From contig NZ_LT629748.1 in assembly GCF_900105005.1 (NCBI RefSeq), forward strand, positions 1,364,001-1,428,000: a stretch of 64,000 nt of DNA. Direction: 5' to 3'. The position numbers were made by a program, and so were the translations under genes. Origin of the DNA: Halopseudomonas litoralis (GTDB lineage Bacteria > Pseudomonadota > Gammaproteobacteria > Pseudomonadales > Pseudomonadaceae). Below, piece after piece: positions 25,649-58,195 of the stretch. How positions within the stretch are numbered: position 1 is the stretch's first letter; each line of letters opens with the position of its first letter. Under the pieces are notes generated by a model. That model was not told where the DNA came from. It was given only the letters and a program-made list of their open reading frames with translations, and did no database searches.

Positions 25649-25677
25649 GGTTCGGTCCGAGGCCGCTAGAAACGACT
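25649..25677 (+). promoter_or_regulatory. Candidate ECF-sigma promoter (orphan copy)
   Basis: GGTTCGGTC (25649-25657), 15 nt, CGACT (25673-25677), then ATATAGAGAGAG. It is the same spacing and sequence as at 32379, 35567 and 58167. No complete gene lies directly downstream; the next is the small ORF at 25971. It may be left over from a deleted regulon member. Confidence 0.6.
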
Positions 25678-25871
25678 ATATAGAGAGAGGGTAGATTTCC
25701 AGGAAAGGGGGTTTAAATAAGCCAGATAGTCAGAGAAGGGCCGTGCAAGACCCTTAAGAGCCATGACGGGACGGATGCGGTAGCTATCGGCTGAAGGACA
25801 AGAAAGCGGCTGGTCTCGCACCGATCTCAGCCAGCAGCCAAGAACTATTAACCAGCATGTAAACGCTAAGG

Positions 25872-25934
25872 GTGGGTCAGTTTTGGATCGGCGATATTGC
25901 TGATAAGTGGGCCACTTTTAAACCAGCGTTGACA
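25872..25934. mobile_element. IS21-family-like terminal remnant
   Basis: Two imperfect 22-bp direct repeats, GTGGGTCAGTTTTGGATCGG (25872) and GTGGGCCACTTTTAAACCAG (25907), are followed by the sequence GCGTTGACA. Multiple terminal repeats of this GGGTCA-type sequence ending in TTGACA are typical of IS21-family ends. No istA or istB remains and no opposite end was found, so only a scar is left. Confidence 0.4.
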
Positions 25935-25970
25935 CTTATGTCCTTGTCAAGGGCTGCATAAGGAGAAAAA

Positions 25971-26099
25971 ATGAACCACCTGATGTGGACTGCTCCGCGT
26001 GACGGACGTGATTGGGTAGATGATTCTGCTCTACGTGTAGTTGGCCTGCTCCGCAACACGGTGCCTGGGTCTGATTGGGTGGCCGTATGGATGCAGTGA
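25971..26099 (+). CDS. Small ORF (42 aa) coupled to the nuclease-like gene
   Basis: A 42-residue frame (MNHLMWTAPRD ... SDWVAVWMQ) has a strong ribosome site (AAGGAGAAAAA) and its stop codon overlaps the start of the next gene by 13 bases, so it is probably a leader peptide or small partner that couples translation. It is Trp-rich (4 of 42). No family recognised. Confidence 0.5.
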   Translation: MNHLMWTAPRDGRDWVDDSALRVVGLLRNTVPGSDWVAVWMQ

Positions 26100-27316
26100 G
26101 GGAACGATTCGAGGAGAGGAGGAAAGTATGGGCGCAGGGTCAGTCTGGGCCGCTTTTTGATCCCGAAGATGCAATATTCTGGTATCTCCTCCAAGCCACC
26201 GCATATGCCACCCCTGATCGTCGACATGATTACTTTGAACCTGATGCTTTCAGGATCAGTCCAGTATTCGCTCGGTTGGGTCAAATGCTTTCGCGGCTAT
26301 CTAGTATCGTTGGTATTGAAGACCGACTTGAAACCTTGATGACCAAGGGGAAAAGTCAGCCGGATGCTGGGCTGTATGAGATTCTTGTTGCAGGTGCTTA
26401 TAAGAGTCGAGGGTGGAATGTCGCATTTGTTCCCGAACAACCGGGCGTAGCCAAAGCTCAGGACTTACTTGTTACCAAAGGTCGCCACCGCTGGGCGGTG
26501 GAATGCAAGCGTGTAAATCGAAACAAATATGAAGAGCAGGAATATCAACGCGCCCTGGCCCTGGCTCGACCTATACACTCACTGGCCGAACAGCAGGGGG
26601 TATCAGTTCTGTGTGAGGTGATGTTTCTCATCGAGATGAAAGATGTGCCCGATGAATATTTGCAGGATCACTTGCGCGATTATTTATCTGGTCCGAGATC
26701 TTGTGTCTGGAAGGATGAGGTAAGCATCGGTTGCATTCAGAGTACTAGGCTCGATCTTCTGCAACAGGTATTGCAGTATGATCATGTATTTTACAACTCA
26801 AGCAGAATGGTTGAACTGCTTGCAGGTGGGTATCGGCAGGATTTCGACCACAGTGTTAAAGCACTCTGGGAACCTGCCCCCCAGCACCCAATTCATGCAT
26901 CTTGGGTAAGCCAAGCCAGTGTGGTGAGCTGGCGTAGCGCGTCGCCTGAGGCAGCAGAGAGTAAAGCTCGTCATTTTCGGGCTCTCATTGCAAAAGCTAC
27001 CAAGCAGTTGCCTTCCGACTATCCAGGTGTTGTGCATGTGGGCTATGAGGCGCTGGGCAACAACTCGGTGGATGAACAACGCCATATTCGTAATAGATTG
27101 GAGATGAAGCGATTTGATCCAATAGATTCCCGGTTACGCTGGGTATATGCCAATTACCTCATGCCTGAACATACCACGGCGAGAAATGAGAATTGGGCTG
27201 TCAGTGAAACCACTGCTTGTTACCGAATAGGGAAGCATCGAGTGCCTGAACCATTACCTGATCATATAATACTAGATCGAGAAGATGGGGAGCCGGGAGT
27301 TCATTGGCGAGGATAA
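26087..27316 (+). CDS. Unknown protein with PD-(D/E)XK nuclease-like core
   Basis: A 409-aa soluble protein. Residues about 120-155 read QDLLVTKGRHRWAVECKRVN, matching the D-Xn-(E)CK core of restriction-endonuclease-like folds, with an upstream acidic residue in QPDAGLYEILVAGAY. The remainder is not recognised. Starting at ATG 26087 it overlaps the small upstream ORF; a TTG at 26075 is less likely. It sits in a defence-like region and converges with the RloC-like ATPase at a shared hairpin. A nuclease in phage defence or DNA processing is the likely role, but unproven. Confidence 0.6.
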   Translation: MDAVRERFEERRKVWAQGQSGPLFDPEDAIFWYLLQATAYATPDRRHDYFEPDAFRISPVFARLGQMLSRLSSIVGIEDRLETLMTKGKSQPDAGLYEILVAGAYKSRGWNVAFVPEQPGVAKAQDLLVTKGRHRWAVECKRVNRNKYEEQEYQRALALARPIHSLAEQQGVSVLCEVMFLIEMKDVPDEYLQDHLRDYLSGPRSCVWKDEVSIGCIQSTRLDLLQQVLQYDHVFYNSSRMVELLAGGYRQDFDHSVKALWEPAPQHPIHASWVSQASVVSWRSASPEAAESKARHFRALIAKATKQLPSDYPGVVHVGYEALGNNSVDEQRHIRNRLEMKRFDPIDSRLRWVYANYLMPEHTTARNENWAVSETTACYRIGKHRVPEPLPDHIILDREDGEPGVHWRG

Positions 27317-27379
27317 CGGATGAACTCGACTTCGGCATACCTACCCAGTAGCAAACATTTACGTCCTGTGTCTGGTGTC

Positions 27380-27409: not shown

Positions 27410-27418
27410 CCTATAAGC

Positions 27419-32378: not shown

Positions 32379-32407
32379 AGTTCGGTCTGAAGGCCCAGAA
32401 AGCGACT
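32379..32407 (+). promoter_or_regulatory. Candidate ECF-sigma promoter of the DUF4375/mini-FecR pair
   Basis: AGTTCGGTC (32379-32387), 15 nt, CGACT (32403-32407), then TATATAGAGAGAG. It is 66 nt upstream of the ATG at 32473. It shares architecture with the sites before tpsA and tpsB. Confidence 0.7.
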
Positions 32408-32472: not shown

Positions 32473-33405
32473 ATGAGTCAGACATTCAGCTCGGTGCCGT
32501 TCAAGACCTTTGAAACTTGCATCCGCACTGTTCCGATACGCCTGCGCGACTATAACGCTGCCGATCCACACGTCTTCAGCCGGGCGGTCTCTCGTGTCCG
32601 TAACGATCTGGTTGTGTACGGGGCATACGCATACAAGGAACTGCCCGGGCCGCTGCATGTCAATCACCATATTTGGCAATATGCAGGCCAGATCACCAGC
32701 GGCGGGCATGAACAGTTTGTAGCCAATTGCGGCTGGTCGCGTAACAGGCAAGACGAGCTGGATACCGCATTGGGTGCGATAGGCGCCACCGCCCATCAGC
32801 AGTTGTTTCGCGAAGTGGCCGCGTACATCAATTCCTCGGACGCCATATTGGCTGATGTCATGGCCCGTGGTGGCTTTGACCACCCGGAACATGGCTGCGT
32901 CGACCCCTGGCTCATCAACAAGGACAACGCGTTCCGTGAATTGATCAGGGATCAGGATCTCATGGCGCTGCTGTGTGCCTGGCTGAAACAGCATCCAGCC
33001 ATTCAACCGGTACATGACCTCCAGTGGAAATTCAGCATGTCTGACCTCATCGAAGACAATCCCCTGCGTGAAGCAAGACTGGCCAAATCGGGGCAGGCGA
33101 ATAGATCCTTTCTCAAGGAACTGACCGACAATGCACCGATGAAAATGACCCGCCATGAGTACGCAGCCAGCATAGCCAAACGGCACGGCATCGAGCTGCC
33201 CAGGCTGGCCCAGGGCATATGGAAGGACGTCATCAACGGCGAGGAGTGCCTTGTTGCGCATTACGTCAAAGGCAAAGAGGACTTTGTCGCAATCTACTCG
33301 CGGTCTGCTGCGGGGCTTTATCAACTCAGGAAGAAGCTGTTCGGACAGGGATTGACCATGGGCCGGAAGCTGGGCATCGCCAGAATAGAATACAAAGAGG
33401 TGTGA
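32473..33405 (+). CDS. DUF4375 (DMP19-like) family protein
   Basis: A 310-aa soluble protein. Residues about 30-120 match the DUF4375 pattern: alternating helices with WQYAGQITSGGHEQFVANCG and LDTALGAIGATAHQQLFREV. The function of the family is not established. The C-terminal half is unassigned. It starts 66 nt after the candidate ECF promoter with CGAGG as ribosome site, and is followed after 87 bases by the mini-FecR gene, so both probably belong to the sigma regulon. Confidence 0.7.
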   Translation: MSQTFSSVPFKTFETCIRTVPIRLRDYNAADPHVFSRAVSRVRNDLVVYGAYAYKELPGPLHVNHHIWQYAGQITSGGHEQFVANCGWSRNRQDELDTALGAIGATAHQQLFREVAAYINSSDAILADVMARGGFDHPEHGCVDPWLINKDNAFRELIRDQDLMALLCAWLKQHPAIQPVHDLQWKFSMSDLIEDNPLREARLAKSGQANRSFLKELTDNAPMKMTRHEYAASIAKRHGIELPRLAQGIWKDVINGEECLVAHYVKGKEDFVAIYSRSAAGLYQLRKKLFGQGLTMGRKLGIARIEYKEV

Positions 33406-33780: not shown

Positions 33781-34181
33781 TTGCTGCCTGCGTTAATACA
33801 ATATCGCCATGTTACGTAACTTCTGAAACACGGCCGTCATGTTTCAGCGGGTAGAGTTCGCCTTTCTGTTTATAGAGATATCCCTGTTTTATATCGATTT
33901 GGTGTTTTTCTATTTAATGTCAACGGCTTGCGACTGCATTTTAAGTGTCGGCTTGATGGCTGGCTGATTCTTTGATTTTTTTTGAAAGTAATGTGTTTTT
34001 TCCTGTGTGTTATGTAATTTTTTTAGTGGGATTGTCACACGGTATCGGCAATCTAGAACTGTCACCGAGTGGTGGCGAGGTGCATGAAGGGCGACCTGGC
34101 TAATAGTCCACGATTGCCCGGGCTGTAAAACGGTAAACAAGTAATTCCGATCTTTCCTACTATCTGTAAGGAGTTTTGGTA
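33781..34181 (+). promoter_or_regulatory. AT-rich leader region of the DING gene
   Basis: Four hundred non-coding bases contain an 8-bp inverted repeat CTGAAACA / TGTTTCAG (33823-33847), long T-runs (33970-34025), and two PhoB-like half sites, TTGTCAC (34032) and CTGTCAC (34059), which are 27 bp apart and so not a regular box. A ribosome site TAAGGAG (34167) precedes the ATG at 34182. The promoter is probably in here but cannot be placed. Confidence 0.4.
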
Positions 34182-35366
34182 ATGACTAAGTTTCGTATGA
34201 GCGCTCTGTCCGCTCTGGTTGCAGTAGGTGTTATGGGTATGGCTGGCGCTGCTTCGGCAGACGGCGTTGTCGGTGGCGGTGCCACCCTGCCGGAAGATCT
34301 GTACAACGGTCCGAATAACACTGATGGTATTCTGACCGGCTCGGTTCCGGACTTTGAGTTCTATACCGGTGTTGGTAGCGGTGCTGGCAAGCGCGCCTTC
34401 TTCAACAACGACGCTACCGAGTTTGATCTTGCTGCGGGCACCACCGTTGACTACGCCGGCAGTGATTCGCTGGTGACTGCGACTGAAGCTGAGGACTATG
34501 CCGACCATTTGACTCTGGGTGAGGCCAGCTTTGGTCCGCTGATCCAGGTGCCCTCGGTTCTCACTTCGGTGACTGTGCCTTTCAACGTACCAGGGCTTGG
34601 CACGTTGGATTTGACCAGCGAGCAACTGGCGCTGATTTTTGCTGATCCCGCAGTTGTAAACTGGAACGATTCGGGTCTGGCTATCCCGAATGCGCCAGCT
34701 ACGCCGATCACGGTTGTTTATCGCACCGATGGTAGCGGCACCACCGAAATCTTCCTGCGCCACCTCAATGCTATCAACCCCGCCCTGGTTTCCCAGGTGA
34801 GTAACAGTTTCTCTGGCACCATTGACGTCAGTAGCCCGAAATACGTCGGCGCTAACGGCAGCGATGGTGTAGTGACAGCGCTGGGTGAAAATGATTACTC
34901 CATCACCTACGTCAGCCCGGACAAGGTCGATTACGACAACCCAGCTGAAGTTGCATCGATCAACGGCGACCTTCCAACTGAGGTCAACGTACAGAGCGCC
35001 CTCACTGGTATTCTTCCGCCCATATTGAGTGCAAGGAATGACGCTGTGAACTGGGGCATCGGTTACGTGGCATCGGGCGTCAGCCCTATTGCCAATCCAG
35101 CCCAAGGTTACCCGATCGTCGGCGCTACCAACCTGATCTTCAGCCAGTGCTATCTGGATGGTGCTGATTCGAACAAGATTCGTACCTTCTTCGATCAGCA
35201 TTACGCCTCTGGTTCGACCGTGAATGATGCGGCGATTACTGCAGGTTCGTTCATCAAACTGCCGGAGAACTGGAGATCTGCTGTCTACAATGCGTTCTAT
35301 ACTCAAAGCAGTGCCCTGAGCGTTGGTAATGCCAACGTATGTAACGGCAAAGGTCGTCCGCTGTAA
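34182..35366 (+). CDS. DING/PstS-like phosphate-binding protein (exported)
   Basis: A 394-aa protein with a signal peptide (residues 1-26, cleavage at ASA|DG). The mature start DGVVGGGATLPEDLY is the DING-type N-terminus. Further phosphate-binding elements are seen: GVGSGAGKRAFF, VDYAGSDSLV and YRTDGSGTTEIFLRHL. DING proteins bind phosphate with high affinity, and a P. aeruginosa DING protein has been reported as a substrate of the Hxc type II system, of which parts are encoded at 53-55 kb here. Two Cys near the C-terminus (SQCYLDG, NVCNGK) probably form a disulphide. The start is ATG 34182 with TAAGGAG upstream; a TTG two codons earlier is rejected. It is followed by its own strong terminator. 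Confidence 0.88.
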   Translation: MTKFRMSALSALVAVGVMGMAGAASADGVVGGGATLPEDLYNGPNNTDGILTGSVPDFEFYTGVGSGAGKRAFFNNDATEFDLAAGTTVDYAGSDSLVTATEAEDYADHLTLGEASFGPLIQVPSVLTSVTVPFNVPGLGTLDLTSEQLALIFADPAVVNWNDSGLAIPNAPATPITVVYRTDGSGTTEIFLRHLNAINPALVSQVSNSFSGTIDVSSPKYVGANGSDGVVTALGENDYSITYVSPDKVDYDNPAEVASINGDLPTEVNVQSALTGILPPILSARNDAVNWGIGYVASGVSPIANPAQGYPIVGATNLIFSQCYLDGADSNKIRTFFDQHYASGSTVNDAAITAGSFIKLPENWRSAVYNAFYTQSSALSVGNANVCNGKGRPL

Positions 35367-35522: not shown

Positions 35523-35566
35523 TCCAGCGCCCTGATCAAGGCGGTTCTATTAAATTTCCATGACAT

Positions 35567-35595
35567 GGTTCGGTCGAGCTGTTCGCCAAACGACT
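35567..35595 (+). promoter_or_regulatory. Candidate ECF-sigma promoter of tpsA
   Basis: TGACAT precedes GGTTCGGTC (35567-35575), then 15 nt and CGACT (35591-35595), TATATAAAG. Of all four sites it is closest to the one before tpsB (shared TGACATGGTTCGGTCG and CCAAACGACT). It is 80 nt upstream of the ATG at 35676. Confidence 0.8.
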
Positions 35596-35675: not shown

Positions 35676-38600
35676 ATGAGGCAACTCAAACCCAGCCGCC
35701 CCATCAACCGCCGGCCATCATTTACCCTGCGCCCGGTAGCCCAGGTCATTGCATTGCTGCTGGTGGCCGGTGCCGCCGAAGCCTCTCCACGCCCGTTCAG
35801 TTCCGACTGGTTTGCCGCCAAGGGCGCCAGCCAAGGTGCTGCTGCCAACCCCAACCGCCCCGGTGCGCATATCCCCGGCACACCGCCGCCGCTGGCCCAG
35901 CAACAGAAAGATAACGCCCAACTGCAACGTTCGATCGCCAATATCGGTCGTACCGCCGCCTCCATTGCCGCCCAGCAAGCCGCGCAAAAGGCAGCCCGCG
36001 ACGCGGCCCGCCAGAATGGCTCCCATGTTCCCGAAGGCTACACCCAAGGCGGTCTGTGGGATAGGAATGCTGATGGCAACCAACTGAACTGGAAAGGCGC
36101 CGAATGGGCCAATGGCACACCGAATATCGGTGACCGAGACCTGACCATCAAGCAGACCGAATCCAAGGCCATCCTCAACTGGGACACGTTCAATATCGGT
36201 CGTGATACCAGTCTGGAGTTCCAGCAGAACGCCGGTGATGCGGTACTCAACCGTGTGGTCGGAAATGAGATTGCCCCCAGTCAGATCGCCGGCCAGCTGA
36301 AAGCCGACGGCACCGTGATGGTGATCAACCAGAACGGCGTCATCTTTACCGGCTCCAGCCAGACCAACGTGCGCAATATGGTTGCGGCTGCAGGTACCAT
36401 TACGGACAGCCAGTTCGAGAACAACGGCCTGTATAACGGCAACAATGCCACCATCACCAATGCCGCTGGTGATGTGGTGGTAGAGCAGGGCGCACAGATA
36501 ACCACCCATAAGTCGGAAACCTCAACCCAGGGCGGCGGCTATGTGCTGCTGCTCGGGCAGAATGTAGACAACGCCGGTGAGATCAATACCACCAATGGCC
36601 AGACGGCCATGGCCGCTGGTGACAACTTTATTATCAAAAAAGGCTATGCCACCACCGATGGCGACCTTCAGTCCACAGTGCGCGGTAATGTGATCACTGC
36701 AGCCGGCAACGGTACTGTCACCAACAGCGGTATTATCCAGGCCAGCATCGGCGATATCAGCCTAACCGGTAACCAAGTCAAGCAGGAAGGAGTATTGCTG
36801 GCCAGCACCTCGGTAAATAACCGGGGCACTGTTCACCTCAATGCCACTGGCACCGATGCCAATGTCACCCTGGGCGAGGGCAGCACCACCGCTATTCTAC
36901 TGGAAGATACCGATACCACCGCCCTGGACAGCCAGCGCGACGGCCTGCAAGGCCCGGTAGTGGATAATGCCAATCAAAATATCGTCCCAGCGGATAAGTA
37001 CCGCCGCGACCAGTCGCTGGTCGAGATTAGCAGCAGCGGCACGGTGGACTTTGCAAATGATTCCATGACCCTGGCCACCGGGGGCCAGATCGCTGTCAAT
37101 GCCAGCGAACGCAGCCTGGTACGCGACGGCGCCACTCTGGATGTATCCGGTGCTACAGGCGTCAAGGTGTCGATGGAGTCCAATAGCGTCAAGGTCAATA
37201 TCCAGGGCAACGAACTGCGGGATTCACCGAACAACCGTGATGAAGGCAACATCGGCAGCAACGATGTATGGGTGGATGTCCGTGACTTGGTCTACATCCC
37301 CGCCGGTACCAATGGCCATGACAGTGACCGCTGGTATACCGCCGGTGGCCTGCTGGAAGTAGCGGGCTATTTGGGCACCCAGGGCCACAGCGTGGGTGAA
37401 TGGATGGCCCAGGGCGGCAGCGTTATCTTTGCCGGTAACGATGTAGTTACCCAGCAAGGCTCACAGATCAACATTTCCGGCGGTACCCTGGATGTGCAGA
37501 CCGGTGAAATTCAACTGTCCTGGCTGCGCGGCGCGGATGGTAACCTCTATGAAGTGTCCAGTGCACCCGGCGATCTGTTGTATACCGGTATCTATTCAGG
37601 CTTTGAACGCAACAGCGAACGCTGGGGCCAGAAAGAATCCTGGTGGAACCCGCTGATCACCCCCAAAACCCGGCTGGAAAACGGCTATACAGTAGGTCGT
37701 GACGCCGGCACCTTGGTGATTGGTACCCGCAATGCGGTGCTGGAAGGGGATATCGTCGGTGATACCTATCAGGGTGATCGCCAGACCCAAGCCGCCCAGC
37801 AGGGGCTGGATGGCTATTACCAGTCACAAAAGGCCGTGGCCCGTGGCGCGCAGCTGGTGGTGGGCGAATATGTACCGTTTTATGTCAAGAACAGCGGCAC
37901 CCTTCAACATCGGCTGACCGCCACCGGCAACACCATCCAGAAGGTGATCTTTAACAATACCGCCGGCAATATCTCCGCCGGTCTGGAACTGGACAGCGAA
38001 CTACCGGACGATCGCCAGGGCACACTGGTACTGAATGCCGACCAGCTCAACGGATTCAACCTGGGCGCCATCAAGGTGGCGGCCGGGGAAAGCATTACAG
38101 TGGAAAATGACCTGGCGGTCGGTCATGCGGGTAACATCACCCTGTATGGCCCACAGATTAACGTCAACGCCGACCTCACCGCGCGTAGTGGGAGCATTCA
38201 CCTGGGTAACGTGGTGAATCAGATCGGTATCAATAACACCAATATTCAGGACGTGGTGATCAATGCACCAGCCGGCACCGCTGCCGGTGTCACGGTAGCT
38301 GAAGGCGTCAACCTGGATGCCAGCGGCCTGTGGAGCAATCTACTCCTGAACTCCGAGAATACCAGCCTTCTACCGTATCAGAATGGCGGCAATATCTCGA
38401 TCCGCAGCAGCGGTGATGTCACCCTGAGCGAGGGTAGCCTGATTGATGTGACATCAGGCGCTGCCATCCTGGTTGATGGCGGTCAGCAGGGCGGGCGCGG
38501 CGGAAATGTAACGCTGCAGGCTGGGCTGCTCAGCCAGAGTGGGTCGCTGGTGCTGGACGGTGACATACAAGGCCACGGTGTCAACGGCGGCGGCAGCCTG

Positions 38601-47600: not shown

Positions 47601-48998
47601 AGCAGTTTTGATGTGGCTGGACCCGGTACGCTGGAAGTGCGCGCCGGTCGCAATATCCTGATGGTTGGGCAAGCGGATCGCCTGCCTAACGATTCTTTGA
47701 CCTACGGTGAAACCGCCATCACCAGCCTTGGCCCGATCGTGCCCGGCGACAACCGCCCCGGTGCCAGCATCGTGATGCAAGCGGGCATGGGGCCGGGCGT
47801 CGATTTTGCCGGGTTCCTCGATCTGTATCTGAATCCGGAGAACCTGGCTGATGCTGACCTGCCGCTGGCTGATCAGGAGGGCAAGGTTGCCAAGACCTAC
47901 GAGGCCGAGCTGATCGAGTGGCTGGAACAGCGTTACGGCTTTGTGCCCAGCAGTGAAGACAGCGCGGTGGATGAGGCACTGGCGTTCTTTGCCGGACTGG
48001 GGGTTGAGCAGCAGCGGGTGTTGGGTCGTAAACTGTATTTTGCCGAGCTGAAGGCCGGCGGTCGCGAGTACAACGATGCGGATGGGTCGCGCTTCGGCAG
48101 TTATTTGAGGGGTCGCAACGCCATTGCGGCGCTGTTCCCGACCCATGATGTGGCCGGTAATGCCATTGCCTACGCTGGCGACATTCTGATGTACGGCGGT
48201 GCCGGGGTTCACACCAATATGGGTGGTGATATCCAGATGCTGACGCCGGGCGGGGCACAGACCTTTGGCGTGGAGGGCGCGGCGCCGCCATCCACGGCGG
48301 GTGTTATCACCCGTGGCCAGGGCGATATTCAACTCTATTCGCGGGACAGCATCCTGCTGGGCCAGAGCCGGGTGATGACCACCTTTGGTGGGGACATTCT
48401 TGGCTGGTCGGCAGAAGGCGACATCAACGCAGGCCGGGGCTCGAATACCACGGTGGTCTATACGCCGCCGAGTCGGATGCTTGATCAGTGGGGTAACGTG
48501 ACCTTGTCGCCGGATGTGCCAAGTACTGGTGCGGGTATTGCCACGCTGAATCCGATTCCTGAGATCGAGCCGGGTGATATTGATCTGATCGCGCCGCTGG
48601 GTACGGTGGATGCGGGCGAGGCCGGTATCCGGGTGTCGGGTAGCGTCAACGTCGCGGCTCTGCAGGTGCTGAACGCGGACAATATTCAGGTGCAGGGCGA
48701 GTCGACCGGTATACCGGTGGCGGCGGCCGTCAACGTGGGTGCCCTGACCTCGGCCAGCCAGGCGGCGAGCAGTGCGGTAACGGCTGCCGAGCAGGTGAAC
48801 CAGGCGGCACGACGTAATCTGCCATCCATTATCAGTGTGGAAATTCTGGGCTACGGCGATGAGCGTTTGGAGCCGAGCAGTGGCCGGAATGATCCGCTGT
48901 CCTATAACCAGGGTAGTCCGGTGCAGGTGTTGGGGGTTGGGCCTGTCAGTGAAGAGGGCCTGCAGCAGATGACAGAGGAGGAGCGCCTGCAGTTCTGA
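35676..48998 (+). CDS. pdtA: Giant two-partner-secretion exoprotein TpsA (PdtA-like filamentous adhesin)
   Basis: 4440 aa from ATG 35676 (AAGGAAAG upstream). The in-frame extension back to 35385 covers the promoter and is rejected. An extended signal peptide (residues 1-37, AEA|SP) is followed by the TPS secretion domain (about 120-330) with WDTFNIGRD, LEFQQNAGDAVLNRVVG, INQNGVIFTG and TNVRNMVAAAG. The rest is a beta-helix of filamentous-haemagglutinin type with many NxGxI/L turns. Special segments: Ala/Pro/Leu-rich repeats at about residues 2960-3100, four near-identical Cys-containing repeats at about 3176-3326, and CAADDC near 2188. It has no C-terminal membrane anchor. It should be carried across the outer membrane by the TpsB at 58327. 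Order DING-TpsA-PhdA-like matches P. aeruginosa pdtA. A surface adhesin or virulence role is inferred. Confidence 0.92.
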   Translation: MRQLKPSRPINRRPSFTLRPVAQVIALLLVAGAAEASPRPFSSDWFAAKGASQGAAANPNRPGAHIPGTPPPLAQQQKDNAQLQRSIANIGRTAASIAAQQAAQKAARDAARQNGSHVPEGYTQGGLWDRNADGNQLNWKGAEWANGTPNIGDRDLTIKQTESKAILNWDTFNIGRDTSLEFQQNAGDAVLNRVVGNEIAPSQIAGQLKADGTVMVINQNGVIFTGSSQTNVRNMVAAAGTITDSQFENNGLYNGNNATITNAAGDVVVEQGAQITTHKSETSTQGGGYVLLLGQNVDNAGEINTTNGQTAMAAGDNFIIKKGYATTDGDLQSTVRGNVITAAGNGTVTNSGIIQASIGDISLTGNQVKQEGVLLASTSVNNRGTVHLNATGTDANVTLGEGSTTAILLEDTDTTALDSQRDGLQGPVVDNANQNIVPADKYRRDQSLVEISSSGTVDFANDSMTLATGGQIAVNASERSLVRDGATLDVSGATGVKVSMESNSVKVNIQGNELRDSPNNRDEGNIGSNDVWVDVRDLVYIPAGTNGHDSDRWYTAGGLLEVAGYLGTQGHSVGEWMAQGGSVIFAGNDVVTQQGSQINISGGTLDVQTGEIQLSWLRGADGNLYEVSSAPGDLLYTGIYSGFERNSERWGQKESWWNPLITPKTRLENGYTVGRDAGTLVIGTRNAVLEGDIVGDTYQGDRQTQAAQQGLDGYYQSQKAVARGAQLVVGEYVPFYVKNSGTLQHRLTATGNTIQKVIFNNTAGNISAGLELDSELPDDRQGTLVLNADQLNGFNLGAIKVAAGESITVENDLAVGHAGNITLYGPQINVNADLTARSGSIHLGNVVNQIGINNTNIQDVVINAPAGTAAGVTVAEGVNLDASGLWSNLLLNSENTSLLPYQNGGNISIRSSGDVTLSEGSLIDVTSGAAILVDGGQQGGRGGNVTLQAGLLSQSGSLVLDGDIQGHGVNGGGSLTVQAGSAIYVGDDEILAGGYLEAGEPAPITVLLNEPITQGKGDILLADASYNQVVSGQTLESAITFSNTGNTLSVAVGSGGWDLTALSNLDVYVGSTRYRSIRGETVPEGAVITRINAGTLPAGYKLPDSLASLPTPTYTVTVGQVAPMDTTLAVGTAVAAGAVFDQRVAVQAPLVLESDFFDKGFGHYNVVGQYGVTVAEGAQVDVTMPVMRLNEQARGLATGSDPSEVLERWTSPVYMEDPIEGQLAQRQGASLSLQAGSEQSSVGDMANVQAGVGRRAVVNVDPGQSIDIHSIGQLTVDGTLNAWGGQIELGSVAPAAGIDRERAEAAGHGHSIWIGENAVLDVAGRAVTTVDVRGQRYGQVNKGGSIVIGGAFDPASGIADAANLFVVVREGALLDASGASAVLDIPGQGAVEVASKGGDITLTSGNGLYLDGTMLAASGGAGAAGGSLTVALETPLYRSSGGVVPDERVRRVREFVLIQENTDSELARGIDAGEAADQLVYGQGRLGVDQIDGGGFDNLTVLSNGLLSFEGDLSLNMGQSLNLYTGALGLTDAANEDSRITLAAPYVGLAGAGATSSPDNYIRPTVRGGITSISTQAPAGVFEVNAGQLLELRDGVAFGARGGGNANIDGLGVVVDRRAFDNVELVSQGDMRFLATTVTAGTVLNTSGDLTLAAAQIYPATGANATVYAGWRGNFTDYDSERTLRVMRTTEEVPDVPYSVFGSLLLGADTIEQGGILRAPLGSVQVGQSPSSFRTTKAVNLLDGSLISVSAAGLVMPYGGTKDGLTWEYEGEEVQLHGAGSLEAGSVTLTGQLVDVQEGAVIDLSGGGELTGAGFVSGRGGSTDARYNPLVQIGTDGFTLPGLDSNPVYAIVPGVQSVAPGSGEAGAVDPMVGQQVTIGTGVSGLPAGTYTLMPSTYALLPGAFRVEINGLAGQGAVTPATAARNGSFSIAGIMSIAGSGIRDSLASQLILTPADTLRTYSQYNETNYADFVRADAARLGVPRALIESDAKTLLLQFPTRDAESEELSFYFDGTVLGEAHEDGYGSTLAVVGSFSNARIEIMADGTLPNSEFEVAVQASDLNRIEVNRMVIGSRPQVDYGQGGNLLHFNTPTGTARAITVRRGATLSAPEVMLISYGVRTDSSSAIEIEQGAVINTLAQGDVAYDSTDGFIYQPGNSGVVAVSNGQLQWLAPENSSGAAGPSAIRIGGCAADDCTGTTQLYSEGSIAFVTNNDFELDDDVRYGTRHLSLGVGAFNIGSAEALAAAAARNALTPGLALNQQTMERLLQGDENSGAPALETLELIAADSVNFFESVTLSTLDENGESLLDNLLLTTPAIYGYGAANDVALIETGHLVWNGAAMAPGAVVTGGAGTGSGTLAVDAEQITFGYGPWAQPDGISSLDRLALGFANVNLSASDRVTANNQGSLAVYQSQGAHVAGEGAQYSGGNLTITTPLMTGEAGSVNHITAGGAINVLAPEVGAADPADISALGAELSLTAGHGLNLDTTVALPSGKLELAANGDLTLGDNAHLDLAGRSVEFFDDEEATQYSWGGDVSLESSTGNITQTAGSIINVSAEHNQAGRVTAIALGEAAGRVDLQGQILGSASGYYEAGGTYVPYLGGGIVLRAQQLGAGSLSNAFAELNQRLNDGEVNGLRSFQLKQGDLTIGNEVQANQIEVSLDGGHLTVAGTVDASGERVGAIRLAANNGLTLTGDALLDAHGSMLRLDSYGQIIDAPNRAMVELNSGDGLLTLANGARIDLRHGTADKRVQADPSLHDGRDRGTLELNAPRLGGATAGDIDIDAGGSLDIQGARSIALNAVQRYDDAAYGTDEAASGRPYQIIDQAYLDAKHADSTVFINAALLNDNLLNIKLAGLNNARYANVLHLRPGVELVSATPDGDLIVSGDLDLSGHRYASLNPHTQRTSIYGSGEVGALAIRAGGDLSIYGSVNDGFAPPPATPDDNGWVLTPGVQAYGGDVIVPGAGVELAKGTTFPVDKTLNYAVPIEALTLPANTELPVTAELAADLIIPANTVLSAAVRDADGNILYAAGTLLDQATTLPRGSQLEAGSRLPNAIPLTAMTWPAGVPLPVAAILADNTLLPVGALIPSMTDVKLVGDAISVPLRPVSGDSMGKNWAVAAMLPEGSQSWSIRLVAGADTEAADPRLRQHGATGRLILADTHYSVFEQRGAASGREPVWHWDPATGETGPVPQEYIDAGYCEITGYCILVEPEPEGEWHWDPATGESGPVPQEYVDAGYCDIAGYCVFVESEPEPKGEWHWDPATGETGPVPQEYVDQGYCDIAGYCVFVPEPDGEWHWDPATGETGPVPQEYVDAGYCDIAGYCVFIPNESGEQGDVIALYPVAQNFSVIRTGTGDLELLAASDVSMQSLYGIYTAGTSTSSRAGTEADSFNRARSTAGDGSYLHTGNSADEDVGEAYEALVNGGADSTYAAWYPDGGGNLLLRAGGNLTGDLIGSYAPGWPGEELRPQRSSVDQGNWLWRQGSGDTVGVDPIATGWWINFGTYVPGTRATDQSSGNYGLGVGEQNAVASIPELVGFTGIGTLGGGNLTIDVDGDAGMLARRGVSHNSRPRSEGLVLAVGSTGRVTESGELLLTGGGDLNLRFGGELNPGLQARATGGREQNLNLNGVLSNLRGGLRLQAGEIGGVALTYYSTSQVQTDGEEIRAFDPYTSSLGTAGGGLVLMLGDSAATLATRGDLVLAGTGDPGRVSLPYVPEDNGYSWFSLWTENTAINLLSAGGDLTPNGRLWDNGTNTVTNYTSTDGRYIFPSQLSAVAAEGSIYLDDLMLAPATQGSLALLAGKSIYANGNTVSQSGANVSAMPTPFTPAFAIYGQDGYSVTELHNLAADAIVPDPYHFSLFSFESNTFSGEERDSAQPARLYARDGDIVGLSSGEVLVFNSGGRAGQTWYEGAGPIWMRAGRDIVRSGGLLGDSVIIPNAITRALGNTSNGTGRSTSNLLVHNSLTDVSIIEAGRDILYSSFDVAGPGTLEVRAGRNILMVGQADRLPNDSLTYGETAITSLGPIVPGDNRPGASIVMQAGMGPGVDFAGFLDLYLNPENLADADLPLADQEGKVAKTYEAELIEWLEQRYGFVPSSEDSAVDEALAFFAGLGVEQQRVLGRKLYFAELKAGGREYNDADGSRFGSYLRGRNAIAALFPTHDVAGNAIAYAGDILMYGGAGVHTNMGGDIQMLTPGGAQTFGVEGAAPPSTAGVITRGQGDIQLYSRDSILLGQSRVMTTFGGDILGWSAEGDINAGRGSNTTVVYTPPSRMLDQWGNVTLSPDVPSTGAGIATLNPIPEIEPGDIDLIAPLGTVDAGEAGIRVSGSVNVAALQVLNADNIQVQGESTGIPVAAAVNVGALTSASQAASSAVTAAEQVNQAARRNLPSIISVEILGYGDERLEPSSGRNDPLSYNQGSPVQVLGVGPVSEEGLQQMTEEERLQF
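45201..45654 (+). repeat. Four tandem Cys-containing repeats inside TpsA
   Basis: Four units of about 36-38 codons, each with WHWDPATGE followed by GPVPQEYVDAGYCDIAGYC, linked by short acidic spacers such as EPEPEG. Sequences of adjacent units are nearly the same at the DNA level, which points to recent duplication and possible copy-number change. Each unit carries two Cys five residues apart. Confidence 0.95.
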
Positions 48999-53060: not shown

Positions 53061-53744
53061 TCAATCAAATGCCAGTACCCGGCGGTAATACGAGACCGGC
53101 CCGGCGCTGCGGCGGGTGCCGAGACGGATTTCCAAGCCTGATGCCGGTGCCAGGGAGCGGCTGGTGGTAGGGAGTTGTCGCCACCCTTGCTGGGGCTCCC
53201 AGGCGCGGACGTTGAAAGAGGCGATACCTTCCAGTACCGCAACACTGTCCGCGGTCTTGGGGTCGGGCAGGGGGTAGCTGTTGGTAGGTTGGCCGGCGGC
53301 GCGATAGAGCGTGCCTGATTGCAACCACCAACGCACCCGCTGCCACTGGCCGGGGGCAGCGGGGGCGGCGCGTACCAGTTCAAGTTGCAGCGGGATCTGG
53401 TTCAGGCGCCGCACATCCATGCCTACGGGCAGCATGGATATTGGCGGTACTTGCCTGTCTTCAGTCGGTTCGGGCGGTGTCGGTTCAGCGCCTTGCTCTG
53501 GCATGTCCATGGCGCTGGATGGTAATTCGATGGTGGTACGCCAGGCGAGGTCATGTTCGAGCTGTTGCAGCGTGCGCATCAGCCGCGCATTTTCTTCGCC
53601 GCGCACCTCCATTTGGGTGTTGGCTCGGGTCATGATGTCCAGGCCACGCCAGGCGATCAGGCTGATGATGGCCATGATCATGATGGCAATCATGACTTCG
53701 ATCAGGGTGAACCCGCTTTGGCGGTTGTGTGGTGGGGCTTGCAT
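53061..53744 (-). CDS. gspJ: Type II secretion minor pseudopilin GspJ (HxcW-like)
   Basis: A 227-aa pseudopilin. The prepilin cleavage motif SG|FTLIEVMIAI sits at residues 10-20, followed by the hydrophobic helix (IMIMAIISLIAWRGLDIM) and a large C-terminal domain with WRTTIELP and RVRWWLQSG, as in GspJ. With GspI and GspK it caps the secretion pseudopilus. Its stop is followed by the island and not by gspK. The start overlaps the gspI stop by one base. Confidence 0.9.
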   Translation of the reverse strand: MQAPPHNRQSGFTLIEVMIAIMIMAIISLIAWRGLDIMTRANTQMEVRGEENARLMRTLQQLEHDLAWRTTIELPSSAMDMPEQGAEPTPPEPTEDRQVPPISMLPVGMDVRRLNQIPLQLELVRAAPAAPGQWQRVRWWLQSGTLYRAAGQPTNSYPLPDPKTADSVAVLEGIASFNVRAWEPQQGWRQLPTTSRSLAPASGLEIRLGTRRSAGPVSYYRRVLAFD

Positions 53745-54112
53745 CAGCGGGCCTCCGGCAGCCAGGTTTGCAGGGAGGCTAGCCGCCGGTCACTGTGCTG
53801 CAGGGGATAGACGCCAATGCTGATGTTGCGCATGCCTTGCTGAAGTGAGCCGACCTGTAATCGACAAATGAACTCCTGGTCGCCCTGGGGGCACTCAGCC
53901 TGATGTAGGCCGGCCGGAGGTAGGGGCGTCATGCGTACTTCGTTCAGACTGTTCTGCGCCGAGAGCATGGCCAGCGTCTGTTGCTCGATATGGGCCATAT
54001 TAGTCGCGGCCTGGCTGGTGACGCGGGTGTAGGCGGCTAGCGCTACGCTGATGATGGCCAGCGCGATCAACACTTCTATCAGGGTAAAGCCTGTTTGCCG
54101 GGTTGCTGACAT
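53744..54112 (-). CDS. gspI: Type II secretion minor pseudopilin GspI (HxcV-like)
   Basis: A 122-aa pseudopilin with cleavage motif TG|FTLIEVLIALAIISVALAA and the GspI features HIEQQTLAMLSAQNSLNEVRM (shown in part) at residues 35-60. It is expected to start the pseudopilus tip complex with GspJ. It lies between gspH and gspJ in one minus-strand operon with two bases or fewer between genes. Confidence 0.9.
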   Translation of the reverse strand: MSATRQTGFTLIEVLIALAIISVALAAYTRVTSQAATNMAHIEQQTLAMLSAQNSLNEVRMTPLPPAGLHQAECPQGDQEFICRLQVGSLQQGMRNISIGVYPLQHSDRRLASLQTWLPEAR

Positions 54113-54114
54113 GC

Positions 54115-54600
54115 TTATTCCACCCTGTAGTTGCCAGTGTTGTCGCGCACAATGGCAACCTGATGCTCACCGCTACGCAATTCCAGTTTGAGTGGCGCGC
54201 CTATCCATTCGGATGTCAGCAATAGGGGCGTTTCTGGGGATACGGCTACTTGTGTGGCACGCCATTGACGCGGCCGCAGCGCTTCGTCGCTGTCAAAGCG
54301 ATCCAGTTCACCTGCCGTCGAGACCACGGGCACGACGCTGCCTAGCGTGTTGGTCCAGGTGCCGCGGACGAATTGGTACCCATCGCCAAGCGCTTGCCAG
54401 GCGATGACGCGGCCATCGATGCGGACTTCGTTCTGTGCGGTAGTCAGCCGTAGTGCCAGTTCACGTGCGTCGCGGCGCAGGTTTTCATCTGGGGCGGGCG
54501 CAATATCAAGGCTGATGGCTGCCGTCGCAACACCGATGATGATCAATACGATCATCAATTCAATGAGAGTAAAGCCACGACTGCGACGCTGTATGGTCAT
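54115..54600 (-). CDS. gspH: Type II secretion minor pseudopilin GspH (HxcU-like)
   Basis: A 161-aa pseudopilin with cleavage motif RG|FTLIELMIVLIIIGVATA and a GspH-type C-terminal domain (RDARELALRLTTAQNEV). It is the first gene of the H-I-J operon and divergent from gspC, with which it shares a 148-bp promoter region holding a TTGACA-type element (54678). Confidence 0.9.
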   Translation of the reverse strand: MTIQRRSRGFTLIELMIVLIIIGVATAAISLDIAPAPDENLRRDARELALRLTTAQNEVRIDGRVIAWQALGDGYQFVRGTWTNTLGSVVPVVSTAGELDRFDSDEALRPRQWRATQVAVSPETPLLLTSEWIGAPLKLELRSGEHQVAIVRDNTGNYRVE

Positions 54601-54748
54601 GAAGTACGCTGCCCCTACGTCATGTTGAGAGAGTCCGCCTGCGTTGTTATATGAGATTACGCGCTGAATGTGGCGTTGACATTAAATGCACATATTAATC
54701 TGCTATGTATGGGCGTCGGCAGATCAACCCACTGAAGGAGTTGCGACT

Positions 54749-55201
54749 ATGTCAGTTACTTGGAGACTACCGCAGACGGTATCCCCGGTGCGTCTGATAC
54801 ATGCGGCCGGCTTGCTGGCTGTGGCAGCTGGGGTGTGCGTCTGGGGTTATGTGCTCTATCAGCCCGAGTCAGCTCCTGTCCAGGAGGCCGAAGTGTCAGT
54901 TATCGTGGCTGACGCTGCTGGTGAAGCAATGGCGGGGTGGTTTGGATCGGAGCCGGTACGGCTGGATGTGACGGTGATCGGCCTGGTGCGCAAGTCGGAT
55001 CGGGCGGTGGCGGTGCTGTCTGTGAATGGTTCGCCTGCGCAAGCTTACATGCCCGGCGAGTCGCTGATGAATGATGTTGTTCTCACCTCCATCGAGACTG
55101 ATGGGGTCACGGTCGAGCGCGCTGGGGTTGAGTCGCAAATAGCTGCTCCGGCAATCCCTGACACTGGACCCGATGGGATCAGCCGGGTGCCCAGAGCGTG
55201 A
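54749..55201 (+). CDS. gspC: Type II secretion inner-membrane protein GspC (HxcP-like)
   Basis: 150 aa from ATG 54749 (GAAGGAG upstream). A short cytoplasmic N-terminus, one membrane helix (LIHAAGLLAVAAGVCVWGYVL), then the homology region with WFGSEPVR, VIGLVRKSDRAVAVLSVNG and MPGESLMNDVVLTSIETDGV. GspC links the inner platform to the secretin. It lacks a long C-terminal PDZ/coiled-coil domain, as in Hxc-type GspC. The other Gsp genes (D, E, F, G, K, L, M) are not in this window. Confidence 0.85.
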   Translation: MSVTWRLPQTVSPVRLIHAAGLLAVAAGVCVWGYVLYQPESAPVQEAEVSVIVADAAGEAMAGWFGSEPVRLDVTVIGLVRKSDRAVAVLSVNGSPAQAYMPGESLMNDVVLTSIETDGVTVERAGVESQIAAPAIPDTGPDGISRVPRA

Positions 55202-55203
55202 TA

Positions 55204-55591: not shown

Positions 55592-56572
55592 TCAGGTCAG
55601 CACGACTACTCCGCCGGGCAGGGATAGGCTCTTGATGCCGTAGACATCGGTCAGCAGGGTAATCACCTCGTCCAGCCTGTCGAGTTCAAAGCGTGCCTGC
55701 ACCCGACGCTCGGCGACCTTGGAGTTCAGCAGCAGTATTTTACCTGAACGGTAGCGGTTTACTTCTTCAATGACTGTGCCCAGCGGAATATCATCAAACA
55801 CCAGTACGCGATTGAGCCAGGCGCTGACGCTGCTGGCATCCACCGAGGTGGGCGAAGAAAACGACGAGGGGCTGTAGCGTATCTGTTCGCCGGGACCAAT
55901 GCGCGCATTCTGCCCCTGGAATGACACTTCAGTCAGTCCCTGCAGGCAGGTGACTTGCACACTGTCATTGATGTGTTTGATGTTGATATGTGCGTCCGAG
56001 CTCTTGATCTCGCCGCCTGCCGCGACAATATTGATGCCCTTTGTATAAGAAGAACACTGCACATCCATTTCACCGCTGACCAGTCGTAAGCGATGCTGGT
56101 GGGTGCTGGTGTTGTCATCGAACATCTCGATATGGGTCAGAGTGTTGAGTGTAATGGCGATATCGGAGCTGATATTCAGGCGTTTCTGTTCGCCGCGCGC
56201 GGTCTGAATGCTGTTGTCTGTACCCAGCGAGATACCTGTACGCATACCGAAATGCGCGACCATGGCTACCCCGGTCAGGCCGGCTGCGGCTGCAAGAAAG
56301 TGCCGGCGGCTGAGCTGGCGTGGTGGTAATGCTACAGGCGTGTCGGTGTTCAGCTTGGCAGCGGCGTCGAGCAGACGCCAGGCACGGCTGGTTTCAGCAA
56401 AGGTACGGGCGTGCAATTGACTTTGCGCGCACCAGGACTTGAACGATTCGGCTTCGTCCGGCGACATGTTTCCGGAAGTAATGCGCACCAGCCAGCAACG
56501 TGCTTGTTCCTGGATCAGCTCTGGATCCGCGGCATTGGGTTCGGATTTGTGGTTGTCAGTGCTGGGCGGCAT
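55592..56572 (-). CDS. vreR: FecR-family anti-sigma factor (VreR-like)
   Basis: A 326-aa protein: an N-terminal DUF4880 domain (QEQARCWLVRITSGNMSPDE), one membrane helix (HFLAAAAGLTGVAMVAHFG, residues about 90-108), the FecR periplasmic domain (TARGEQKRLNISSDIAITLN), and a C-terminal STN-like part (EEVNRYRSGKILL). It holds the sigma factor at the membrane and, after a signal from the sensor, releases or activates it. 39 bases follow vreI, in the order vreA-vreI-vreR seen in P. aeruginosa. Confidence 0.88.
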   Translation of the reverse strand: MPPSTDNHKSEPNAADPELIQEQARCWLVRITSGNMSPDEAESFKSWCAQSQLHARTFAETSRAWRLLDAAAKLNTDTPVALPPRQLSRRHFLAAAAGLTGVAMVAHFGMRTGISLGTDNSIQTARGEQKRLNISSDIAITLNTLTHIEMFDDNTSTHQHRLRLVSGEMDVQCSSYTKGINIVAAGGEIKSSDAHINIKHINDSVQVTCLQGLTEVSFQGQNARIGPGEQIRYSPSSFSSPTSVDASSVSAWLNRVLVFDDIPLGTVIEEVNRYRSGKILLLNSKVAERRVQARFELDRLDEVITLLTDVYGIKSLSLPGGVVVLT

Positions 56573-56611
56573 AGCGGGGCTTGTCTGAGGGTGTGGAGGA
56601 AGAGCATCCCT

Positions 56612-57142
56612 TCATGTTTTCTTGTCTGAGGCGGGGCCAAAGCGCTGTATAAATTCGCGGCCAAGGTGTTTGCAGCAGAACTCAAGTGCCGATCTTAACT
56701 CTTTCTCGATCATTCGGGTAGAGATGTCATAGCGCTCGGCCAGTTCTTTATGCGGAACTTCGTATATGCGCGAGGCCAGCAAGATATCTCTGCGGCGAGG
56801 GGAGAGGTGGGAGAGTGCCTTGTGGAGCTGCCTGATATCGTCCGTAACCAGGGTATGGTCCTCCGGGCCGAGTGTGTCATCGGCTATGTGCAGCAGAGCC
56901 TCGGTATCTACTTCAAAGAACTCTTGGCGACGAAAGTCATTGACTGAAATATTCATGGCCATGCGATGTAGATAGGCAAGGGGGGATTTGGTTTCAGCCT
57001 GGGATCGCTTCTGATGCAACTGGATCCATGTGTCATGCAGGATATCGTCGGCCTGACTATAGCTACCCAGCCGCATCTTGAGCCGATTGCGCAACTCCGC
57101 GTAATGGTTCAGATAGGCCATTTTTATCGGATTGTCTGCCAT
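56612..57142 (-). CDS. vreI: ECF sigma factor (FecI/VreI-like)
   Basis: A 176-aa sigma-70-family factor: sigma-2 (SQADDILHDTWIQLHQKRS and YLHRMAMNISVNDFRRQE) and sigma-4 (LSPRRRDILLASRIYEVPHKELAERYDIS). Like FecI-type factors it lacks sigma-3. It is expected to read the four GGTTCGGTC-N15-CGACT sites. Its start at ATG 57142 lies 75 bases after the stop of the sensor gene. Confidence 0.92.
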   Translation of the reverse strand: MADNPIKMAYLNHYAELRNRLKMRLGSYSQADDILHDTWIQLHQKRSQAETKSPLAYLHRMAMNISVNDFRRQEFFEVDTEALLHIADDTLGPEDHTLVTDDIRQLHKALSHLSPRRRDILLASRIYEVPHKELAERYDISTRMIEKELRSALEFCCKHLGREFIQRFGPASDKKT

Positions 57143-57217
57143 GACCGGTTTGCTCCTGCCATAGAAAGGTTTGGATTTTATATGGCCACTATGCAGAGGG
57201 GATGTGACAAATAGGTT

Positions 57218-57913
57218 TCAAGCGGGGCATCCGCTGCTGATGTTGTTGGGTAAGAGCAAAAGGGTGATCGGCTGGGGTAGGCGTCCGGACGAGGGTGGAA
57301 ATCTCAGCGATCGTACTGCATCAAGTACCTGTCTATCCCGCGTTGGGTCATCGGTTGGTTTGACCAATCTGATGGTGTCAACCGTGCTGCGTGGACTCAA
57401 CCATACCTGTAGCAGCATGCGGTAGTCGCCTTCAGGCAGCAGGAATGAGTGGCAGATTACCTTTTCCAGGCTGCTCTGGAAGGCGGTGACGAACTCACTG
57501 GCTTCCAGTGTCGCAGGGGTTATCGGTTGGGCTGGTTTATGCTGCTGGGCACGAGGCATCAAGGTGAATGTACGTGAGCTGGCGTAATGAGCATCAAGGC
57601 CGGAATGGATGATTAGCTGTCGTAATGCTTGTTCTGCGGTGAATGAACCTTGTGCGCCGGGGGAGTGCTGCCGAGAGGTCAGGTTGCTATCGACCAGTAC
57701 GTTGAGCCCGGTGGTCTGGATGTATTGCCGGAGTGCCGTTTCAAGTGGCTGCGCAGCGATATCAAATTCAAACTGCGTTTGATTGCTCTGGATGGCCTGG
57801 CGCTCGTTGGCAAAAGTGGGCGCGCCTGGCCACCAGGGCAGCAGAAAGATGCTGGCGTATAACAGGATTGCCAGTGGCGCGCGACCATAGTGGTTGAGCA
57901 GGGAGGCAGACAA
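57218..57913 (-). CDS. vreA: STN-domain signal sensor without a beta-barrel (VreA-like), TonB-C-like end
   Basis: A 231-aa exported protein: a signal segment (residues 10-35), an STN domain (FDIAAQPLETALRQYIQTTG ... ALRQLIIHSGLDAHY, about residues 45-115), and a C-terminal domain (about 145-225) that reads MLLQVWLSPRSTVDTIRL ... DRQVLDAVRSLRFPP ... LPQPITLLLLP. This end aligns with the C-terminus of the local TonB (QVNLWLNEDGQITRAEVL ... DSKILAALR ... LPVQVSLQ). There is no TonB-dependent outer-membrane barrel, as in P. aeruginosa VreA. It probably passes a periplasmic signal to VreR. First gene of the operon, 114 bases after a PhoB-box-like sequence. Confidence 0.85.
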   Translation of the reverse strand: MSASLLNHYGRAPLAILLYASIFLLPWWPGAPTFANERQAIQSNQTQFEFDIAAQPLETALRQYIQTTGLNVLVDSNLTSRQHSPGAQGSFTAEQALRQLIIHSGLDAHYASSRTFTLMPRAQQHKPAQPITPATLEASEFVTAFQSSLEKVICHSFLLPEGDYRMLLQVWLSPRSTVDTIRLVKPTDDPTRDRQVLDAVRSLRFPPSSGRLPQPITLLLLPNNISSGCPA

Positions 57914-58026
57914 ACATTCTTCCTCGAAAATACAGCGCCATTGTAACCAGCATTACATCCCCGGTAGATCCATCAGCGAGTTACATCGAATACGGGTTTT
58001 GGCCTGACTGAGTCTGGGCCAGGAGT

Positions 58027-58044
58027 GTGTCAGTAGTATGACAA
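58027..58044 (-). promoter_or_regulatory. PhoB-box-like site upstream of vreA
   Basis: On the minus strand TTGTCAT-ACTA-CTGACAC matches the PhoB box (CTGTCAT, 4 bp, CTGTCAC/T) at 11-12 of 14 positions with an AT-leaning spacer. It lies 114-131 bases upstream of the vreA start. P. aeruginosa vreAIR is induced by phosphate limitation through PhoB, which fits. Confidence 0.6.
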
Positions 58045-58166
58045 GCAATTCGCTCATGTAGCCTGGCTTATCGTTTCCCGTCGGTCACTTTCAAGTCATC
58101 TGAAAATGCCAGCATGGTCTTCGGCTATGCGTCTTTGCAATAAACAATATGAAGTTTTGGTGACAT

Positions 58167-58195
58167 GGTTCGGTCGTGCCGTTTCCCAAACGACT
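58167..58195 (+). promoter_or_regulatory. Candidate ECF-sigma promoter of the tpsB operon
   Basis: TGACAT, GGTTCGGTC (58167-58175), 15 nt, CGACT (58191-58195). It drives away from vreA toward tpsB. The 130-bp leader to the ATG at 58327 is GC-rich; no riboswitch was recognised. Confidence 0.8.

Follow-up and report, generated by a model that had tools for sequence, protein, structure and literature searches.

Four promoter-like sites in the window, the 64,000-nt stretch of the Halopseudomonas litoralis genome analysed in the present study, very probably form the −35/−10 promoter set of a single VreI-type (PUMA3) extracytoplasmic function (ECF) sigma factor, encoded with its regulon in the cargo of an integrative and conjugative element of the PFGI-1 class. 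Three of the sites would serve tpsA, tpsB and an operon encoding a DMP19-like protein and a mini-FecR, the fourth being a relic. The sites are:

25649..25677, + strand: site 1, promoter motif, relic of a duplicated DMP19 promoter (exact motif; alignment to the 32379 promoter region)
32379..32407, + strand: site 2, putative promoter motif of the DMP19/mini-FecR operon (AGTTCGGTC...CGACT; orthologous site in the related genome G125)
35567..35595, + strand: site 3, putative promoter motif of tpsA (exact motif; sites before tpsA in five relatives)
58167..58195, + strand: site 4, putative promoter motif of tpsB (exact motif; variant GCTTCGCTG-N15-CGACT before tpsB in G125)

A scan of the window for GGTTCGGTC-N15-CGACT returned exact matches at 25649, 35567 and 58167, i.e. 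three matches against none in each of 100 shuffles. The first-pass annotation had described all four sites as identical in architecture, which holds for the 15-nt spacer between the blocks (four of four sites) but not for the first block, since site 32379 reads AGTTCGGTC, one mismatch from GGTTCGGTC. Its placement of three sites 66–130 nt before genes was borne out by distances, taken from the end of CGACT, of 65 nt to the start codon of the DMP19 gene, 80 nt to ATG 35676 of tpsA and 131 nt to ATG 58327 of tpsB, a start that G125 shares (with TTG 58261 as the start, the last distance is 65 nt). Across the 3.99-Mb genome the pattern GTTCGGTC-N15-CGACT has four exact matches, every one in the window, and the reversed-pattern control has none. 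With up to two mismatches allowed there are 100 matches genome-wide versus 263 for the reversed control, so only exact and one-mismatch matches carry weight; the five one-mismatch matches lie at genome positions 1448626, 1152270, 2173174, 3364189 and 3546651. The background rate, based on ten matches in those family genomes, 263 out of 298, where no VreI homologue reached E<=1e-25, gives a probability of ~8e-8 for at least four matches. The reversed pattern is commoner (~116 matches in the 298 genomes, by hand count), and at that rate the probability is ~7e-4. Clustering of the four matches within 32.5 kb contributes a further factor of ~2e-6.

The genes surrounding the sites include a vreA-vreI-vreR set, a two-partner secretion pair and other secretion genes:

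9114..20428, + strand: conjugation genes left of the cargo (TraD 9114-11300, TIGR03749 14863-15744, TraC_PFL_4706 17546-20428; above curated cut-offs)
34176..35366, + strand: PstS-like phosphate-binding protein (TIGR00975 104.4 bits, below the cut-off of 205; PBP_like_2 69.9 bits, cut-off 27)
35676..48998, + strand: tpsA, secreted partner of the two-partner secretion pair, ATG 35676 (open reading frame; 84% identity to G125 over the N-terminal 450 aa)
53061..55201: type II secretion genes (pseudopilins J, I and one more, all on the − strand; protein C on the + strand)
55592..56572, − strand: vreR-like anti-sigma factor (DUF4880, FecR, FecR_C)
56612..57142, − strand: vreI-like ECF sigma factor, 176 aa (Sigma70_r2, r4_2; homologues)
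57218..57913, − strand: vreA-like protein, STN domain and no beta-barrel, 231 aa (PF07660)
58327..59937, + strand: tpsB, outer-membrane partner (ShlB, POTRA_2; start conserved in G125)
59995..62310, + strand: ExbB-like and ExbD genes

The type II secretion set runs on outside the window, in L031, and a PpiC-type isomerase is among the neighbouring genes. Based on the PFGI-1-class conjugation set (TraD, TraC_PFL_4706, TIGR0375x), the regulon appears to lie in the 65-kb cargo of an integrative and conjugative element of this class, which also holds insertion sequences. A search of the plasmid collection with the tpsA start as query returned eight records at 10–46% coverage, none of them useful.

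The first-pass annotation attributed the sites to one ECF sigma factor and noted a vreI-like gene between two of them; the gene indeed lies between the third and the fourth. Of 37 genus genomes, the three with the exact motif are also the three with a VreI homologue, an outcome expected once in 7770 if the two were independent, and this co-occurrence, with the sites found before tpsA in relatives, supports the attribution. Among the 35 VreI-bearing genomes of the family, four have an exact match, unlinked in one of these (G277). It is improbable that the motif is read by a different regulator or by one of the genome's other ECF sigma factors, with vreI a mere neighbour. Seven region-4 matches (PF08281) above the cut-off, VreI included, offer candidates for such a reader, and beyond the genus the presence of the exact motif does not follow that of VreI; against these stand the shared distribution within the genus, the conservation of sites ahead of tpsA in relatives that have VreI and the embedding of the motif in vreI itself.

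Each of the five VreI-bearing relatives where tpsA was found has a site of this form on the 5' side of that gene, two of the sites being exact matches; four were obtained from scans and the fifth, in G126, was recognised by eye and is absent from the scan's listed matches. Orthologous sites keep the blocks and the 15-nt spacing while their spacers have diverged. Outside the training set, matrix scores were 25.9 for the site before a dsbB-like gene in G125, 29.2 for an element site in G066 and 16.7 for the tpsA site of G297, the last being near the own-genome background maximum of 15.8. In the 40–55 kb covered in each of G108, G122 and G200, VreI is present, tpsA was not found and no intergenic site exceeds that maximum; G200 has only the motif embedded in vreI. 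This embedded copy lies at the 3' end of vreI in Pseudomonas relatives, where synonymous variation is low, and the motif blocks inside vreI of 18 relatives show almost none. The vreI gene of the window, unlike theirs, lacks the embedded motif. An internal vreI promoter was rejected as an explanation both for the window and for G125, as their vreI ends read differently. In three genomes a related site stands before a dsbB-like gene that adjoins genes of the element.

The closest known system is PUMA3/sigma-VreI of Pseudomonas aeruginosa, comprising vreAIR, hxc, pdtA, phdA and pdtB (PMC2729926, PMC4971064, PMC7035377). Both systems have vreA, vreI and vreR in a row, encoding an STN-only receptor without a barrel, an ECF sigma factor and a FecR-type anti-sigma factor, and both have type II secretion, a two-partner secretion pair, ExbB/ExbD and a PpiC-type isomerase nearby (PMC2729926). 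They also appear to share a pho-like element upstream of the −35 at the tps promoters, and the −35 core and −10 fall at numbers matching the mutated positions of the pdtA promoter (PMC4971064), a correspondence of numbering. The regulon of the window differs from PUMA3 in its location within a conjugative element, in the separate sites of tpsA and tpsB with vreAIR between them, and in the added DMP19/mini-FecR operon, whose site has no adjacent pho element.

The candidate pho elements are:

35550..35565, + strand: pho-box-like element of tpsA (one mismatch to TGAAnnTTnnnTGACA)
58150..58165, + strand: pho-box-like element of tpsB (no mismatches to TGAAnnTTnnnTGACA)
58027..58044, − strand: possible pho box upstream of vreA (3 of 14 mismatches; one of eight places on the two strands of the window that match this well or better)

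TGACAT and CCAAACGACT are common to the tpsA and tpsB sites. The sharing of TGACAT reported in the first-pass annotation is thus correct, but the hexamer fits a putative PhoB site better than it fits the sigma site. A pho-like element is present at eight of eight tpsA/tpsB promoters examined, with a consensus drawn from the same promoters on which it was counted, and 14 of 20,000 random stretches are as good. The DMP19 sites, unlike those of tpsA and tpsB, have no adjacent pho-box-like element; a two-mismatch pho-like sequence occurs 128 nt upstream of 32379.

The two genes of the operon downstream of site 32379 are:

32473..33405, + strand: DMP19-like (DUF4375-type) protein, 310 aa
33493..33780, + strand: mini-FecR, free-standing anti-sigma domain, 95 aa (PF16220 56.7 bits, cut-off 25; PupR cytoplasmic domain fold)

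Sequence searches of the PDB gave one chance match, to an engineered protein, for FecR N-tails and nothing for the DMP19-like protein. The comparison was made by fold instead. The DMP19-like protein combines PF14300 with a DMP19 fold (Foldseek E 0.072, probability 1.00). Compared with the Neisseria DNA-mimic protein DMP19 (3wur, 3vjz) it has an extra C-terminal part and is not clearly acidic (35 D/E and 38 K/R overall, 15 and 8 in the domain), making DNA mimicry doubtful. Mini-FecR has the DUF4880 cytoplasmic sigma-binding domain by both profile match and PupR-like fold (predicted model with mean pLDDT 72.6, residues 21-60 near 90), a domain whose one other match in this genome is VreR. With PF16220 as the sole domain found in its 95 aa, and transmembrane and periplasmic FecR domains absent, the protein is a domain-only relative of FecR-type anti-sigma factors. 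It differs from the PupR/FecR-type cytoplasmic anti-sigma domain (5cam, 5cos) in being a separate gene without a transmembrane or periplasmic part, and in standing under a putative promoter of the sigma factor that it probably binds, VreI. No relative was found in the viral collection.

We suggest that phosphate starvation, through active PhoB, would switch on vreA-vreI-vreR, and that VreI freed from VreR, acting together with PhoB positioned immediately 5' of the −35, would transcribe tpsA and tpsB. VreI, probably without PhoB, would also transcribe the DMP19/mini-FecR operon, and the free mini-FecR domain would bind and damp VreI. The sign of this last step could be reversed if, with the same promoters and sigma factor, mini-FecR acted as a pro-sigma domain stabilising or activating VreI in positive feedback, in the manner of the FecR N-tail acting on FecI in E. 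coli. This reading is rather unlikely, although VreR N-tails and the minis alike conserve the core residues, E. coli FecR1-85 binds and activates FecI (PMC9249621) and earlier work found VreR to be required for VreI function (PMC2729926). The later P. aeruginosa study reports that VreR1-86 alone inhibits sigma-VreI and has no pro-sigma activity (PMC4971064), which favours damping.

Returning to mini-FecR as a damper, we tentatively propose that the element may carry an entire ECF sigma regulon gated by PhoB and equipped with its own brake, the free anti-sigma domain being expressed from a promoter that this sigma factor reads without PhoB. The brake would replace the feedback that Pseudomonas relatives may obtain from the sigma-VreI promoter in the vreI 3' end before vreR, and the sigma factor might also read the promoter of the dsbB-like gene among the element genes, which would link part of the element to the phosphate status of its host. 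A search of the open-access literature, which excludes most subscription papers, did not find VreI together with integrative and conjugative element, vreR with intragenic promoter, DUF4880 with anti-sigma, or Halopseudomonas with extracytoplasmic function. From the sites comes a promoter consensus that spans species for sigma factors of the VreI type, and with it regulon prediction outside P. aeruginosa, and their setting places an apparently phosphate-linked ECF regulon in a conjugative element. As a natural, separately encoded FecR N-tail, mini-FecR makes the anti-sigma versus pro-sigma question testable.

Site 25649 is a decayed duplicate of the DMP19 promoter, a pseudogene relic before a broken DMP19 fragment. 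From ~25613 onward the sequence can be aligned to the promoter at 32379 and the beginning of DMP19, with a score of 87 versus a maximum of 37 in 300 shuffles. This duplicate, the insertion sequences and further sites adjoining element genes would also fit a single repeat that duplication and mobile elements had multiplied and that does not act as a promoter. Such an origin for the whole set is highly improbable, given that sites 2–4 differ outside the two blocks and that orthologous sites retain blocks and spacing despite diverged spacers. Near site 1 lie:

25247..25360, + strand: radC relic (tblastn 47% over 38 aa, E 2e-6)
25710..25832, + strand: broken DMP19 gene-start fragment, start codon and frame lost (score 53, reached by none of 500 shuffles)

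The open reading frame at 26075 is an unlikely target of site 25649, because the DMP19 fragment comes next after the site and the start of the frame is ~400 nt away.

A total of four matches to GTTCGGTC-N15-CGACT were recovered from the 3,987,842 bases of the H. litoralis genome (G000) in the scan called for by the first-pass annotation, all within 32.5 kb of the window (25649, 32379, 35567 and 58167), while the reversed pattern, scanned as a control, had none. The four sites had been described as identical in architecture; three are exact to GGTTCGGTC-N15-CGACT, and the fourth (32379) begins with A. A homologue of VreI, the ECF sigma factor encoded in the window, was detected in 35 of 298 family genomes (E ≤ 1e-25), and the remaining 263 contain 10 exact motif matches, a rate at which four or more would be expected with P ~8e-8. 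At the rate of the reversed pattern, which turns up more often across the family (~116 matches in 298 genomes, hand count), P is ~7e-4; clustering inside 32.5 kb contributes a further factor of ~2e-6.

Among all 37 genus genomes available, VreI homologue and exact motif occur in the same three (G000, G125 and G066), which has a probability of 1 in 7770 if independent, and in G125 and G066 the match lies on the VreI contig, upstream of tpsA. Beyond the genus, presence of the exact motif does not follow that of VreI: overall, 4/35 VreI-bearing family genomes have an exact match, and that of G277 is 1.3 Mb away from its vreI. The original observation is upheld, as is its reading that a single ECF sigma factor would serve these sites.

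The regulon is part of the cargo of an integrative conjugative element, for which the following features were identified.
Left of the cargo: conjugation genes TraD, TIGR03749 and TraC_PFL_4706
Right of the cargo, beyond the window: radC, a dsbB-like gene, TIGR03757, 03756 and 03755
Sites of dsbB-like genes: L006:1501-1528 (chromosome 1448625), L127 and L150:9535(-), beside element genes in G000, G066 and G125

The distance from TraC to TIGR03757 is ~65 kb in H. litoralis and 64 kb in G125, with the regulon inside in both; in G066 it is only ~7 kb, the regulon is absent there, and the VreI cluster occupies a separate contig with none of the element's conjugation genes around it (85 kb fetched). 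A dsbB-like gene with an upstream site lies between radC and TIGR03757 in G000 (C1:1448625) and G066 (C45:39281). That of G125 adjoins a MobH relaxase gene and has the site GGTTCGCTT-N15-CGACT. Immediately before the second dsbB-like gene in G066 (C16), no site of this form is present. Window positions 847-5122 encode a helicase-domain protein, an nSTAND3 NTPase and, after these, an IS5 transposase.

Flanks were taken from 8 of the 34 VreI-bearing relatives found. tpsA was located in five, each with a site upstream (5/5), and was not present in the 40-55 kb fetched from G108, G122 and G200. Matrix scores of the tpsA sites were 26.5 (G125), 27.9 (G066), 16.7 (G297) and 23.5 (G262), the first, second and fourth belonging to the training set; the G126 site, a variant (ACTTCGGCC-N15-CGTCT), was spotted by eye in upstream sequence. 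Since the top non-site score was 15.8 (110 kb of the H. litoralis genome), the G297 site rests mainly on its position and pho element. Also outside training were, later, the G125 dsbB-like site (25.9) and the G066 element site (29.2). The majority sequence of the 14 sites collected by these scans and by eye is GGTTCGGTC-N15-CGnCT, with GTTCG at -34 to -30 if CGACT is set at -11 to -7; excerpts of PMC4971064 state that mutations at -34 to -30 matter in the P. aeruginosa pdtA promoter, an agreement by numbering in the text and not by sequence.

A pho element, TGAAnnTTnnnTGACA with 0-1 mismatches, ends 1-2 nt before the motif in 8/8 tpsA/tpsB promoters examined, a descriptive count because the consensus derives from those same promoters; an equally good match occurred in 14/20,000 random window stretches. 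The number of mismatches is two at site 1448625 and five, the most frequent value in random stretches, at site 25649 and at both DMP19 sites (G000 and G125). The DMP19 operon is predicted to be transcribed PhoB-independently. This is only a prediction, as sigma-VreI binding to pdtA requires PhoB in P. aeruginosa (excerpts of PMC4971064) and PhoB input may reach site 32379 through a two-mismatch pho-box-like sequence 128 nt upstream (32234-32251(-)), among the window's two best. More phosphate-related cargo, PhoD-type phosphatase and CHAD-domain genes, adjoins TraC at the cargo's left edge (20582-23441).

vreI 3' ends were readable at 29 of 30 loci examined. In Pseudomonas-type genomes (L041-L065, L097) the motif lies in frame at the vreI end, immediately 5' of the anti-sigma factor gene vreR, and its two blocks show hardly any synonymous variation. 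In 18 vreI genes ending GAGKPS, the codons TTC GGT CCC (under the -35) and GGA AAA CCG (before/in the -10) are invariant and the two spacer codons between them vary; mean codon diversity was 0.06 for eight core codons, picked after inspection in related genomes, versus 0.33 for 66 other conserved codons (0/50,000 draws as low). Six other codons are likewise invariant, two just upstream of the core. In another six genomes vreI has a longer ending and still contains both blocks (CGTCT); AGTC replaces CGTC in four genomes of genus g11, and G066 carries a variant. The invariant blocks and low codon diversity suggest an embedded sigma-VreI promoter ahead of vreR in these relatives. No embedded motif was found at the vreI end of the window or G125, which carry the free-standing anti-sigma domain mini-FecR instead; G066 had no mini-FecR match besides its own VreR. 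Judged from sequence, the system belongs with PUMA3, the P. aeruginosa sigma-VreI system, as a variant; what would be new is the separately encoded anti-sigma domain, the location in the element and, in relatives, the motif embedded in vreI.

Site 25649 we read as a dead duplicate of the DMP19 promoter region. The stretch from ~25613 aligns to the DMP19 promoter and early gene with a score of 87 (maximum 37 in 300 shuffles), and its post-promoter part alone scores 53 (maximum 35; reached by 0/500 shuffles). The DMP19-like fragment after the site has lost both start codon and frame, and a radC relic lies upstream. Further along (26075-30091) are a 413-aa ORF that matches no family and a gene for an AAA_13-type ATPase, possibly a defence-type pair.
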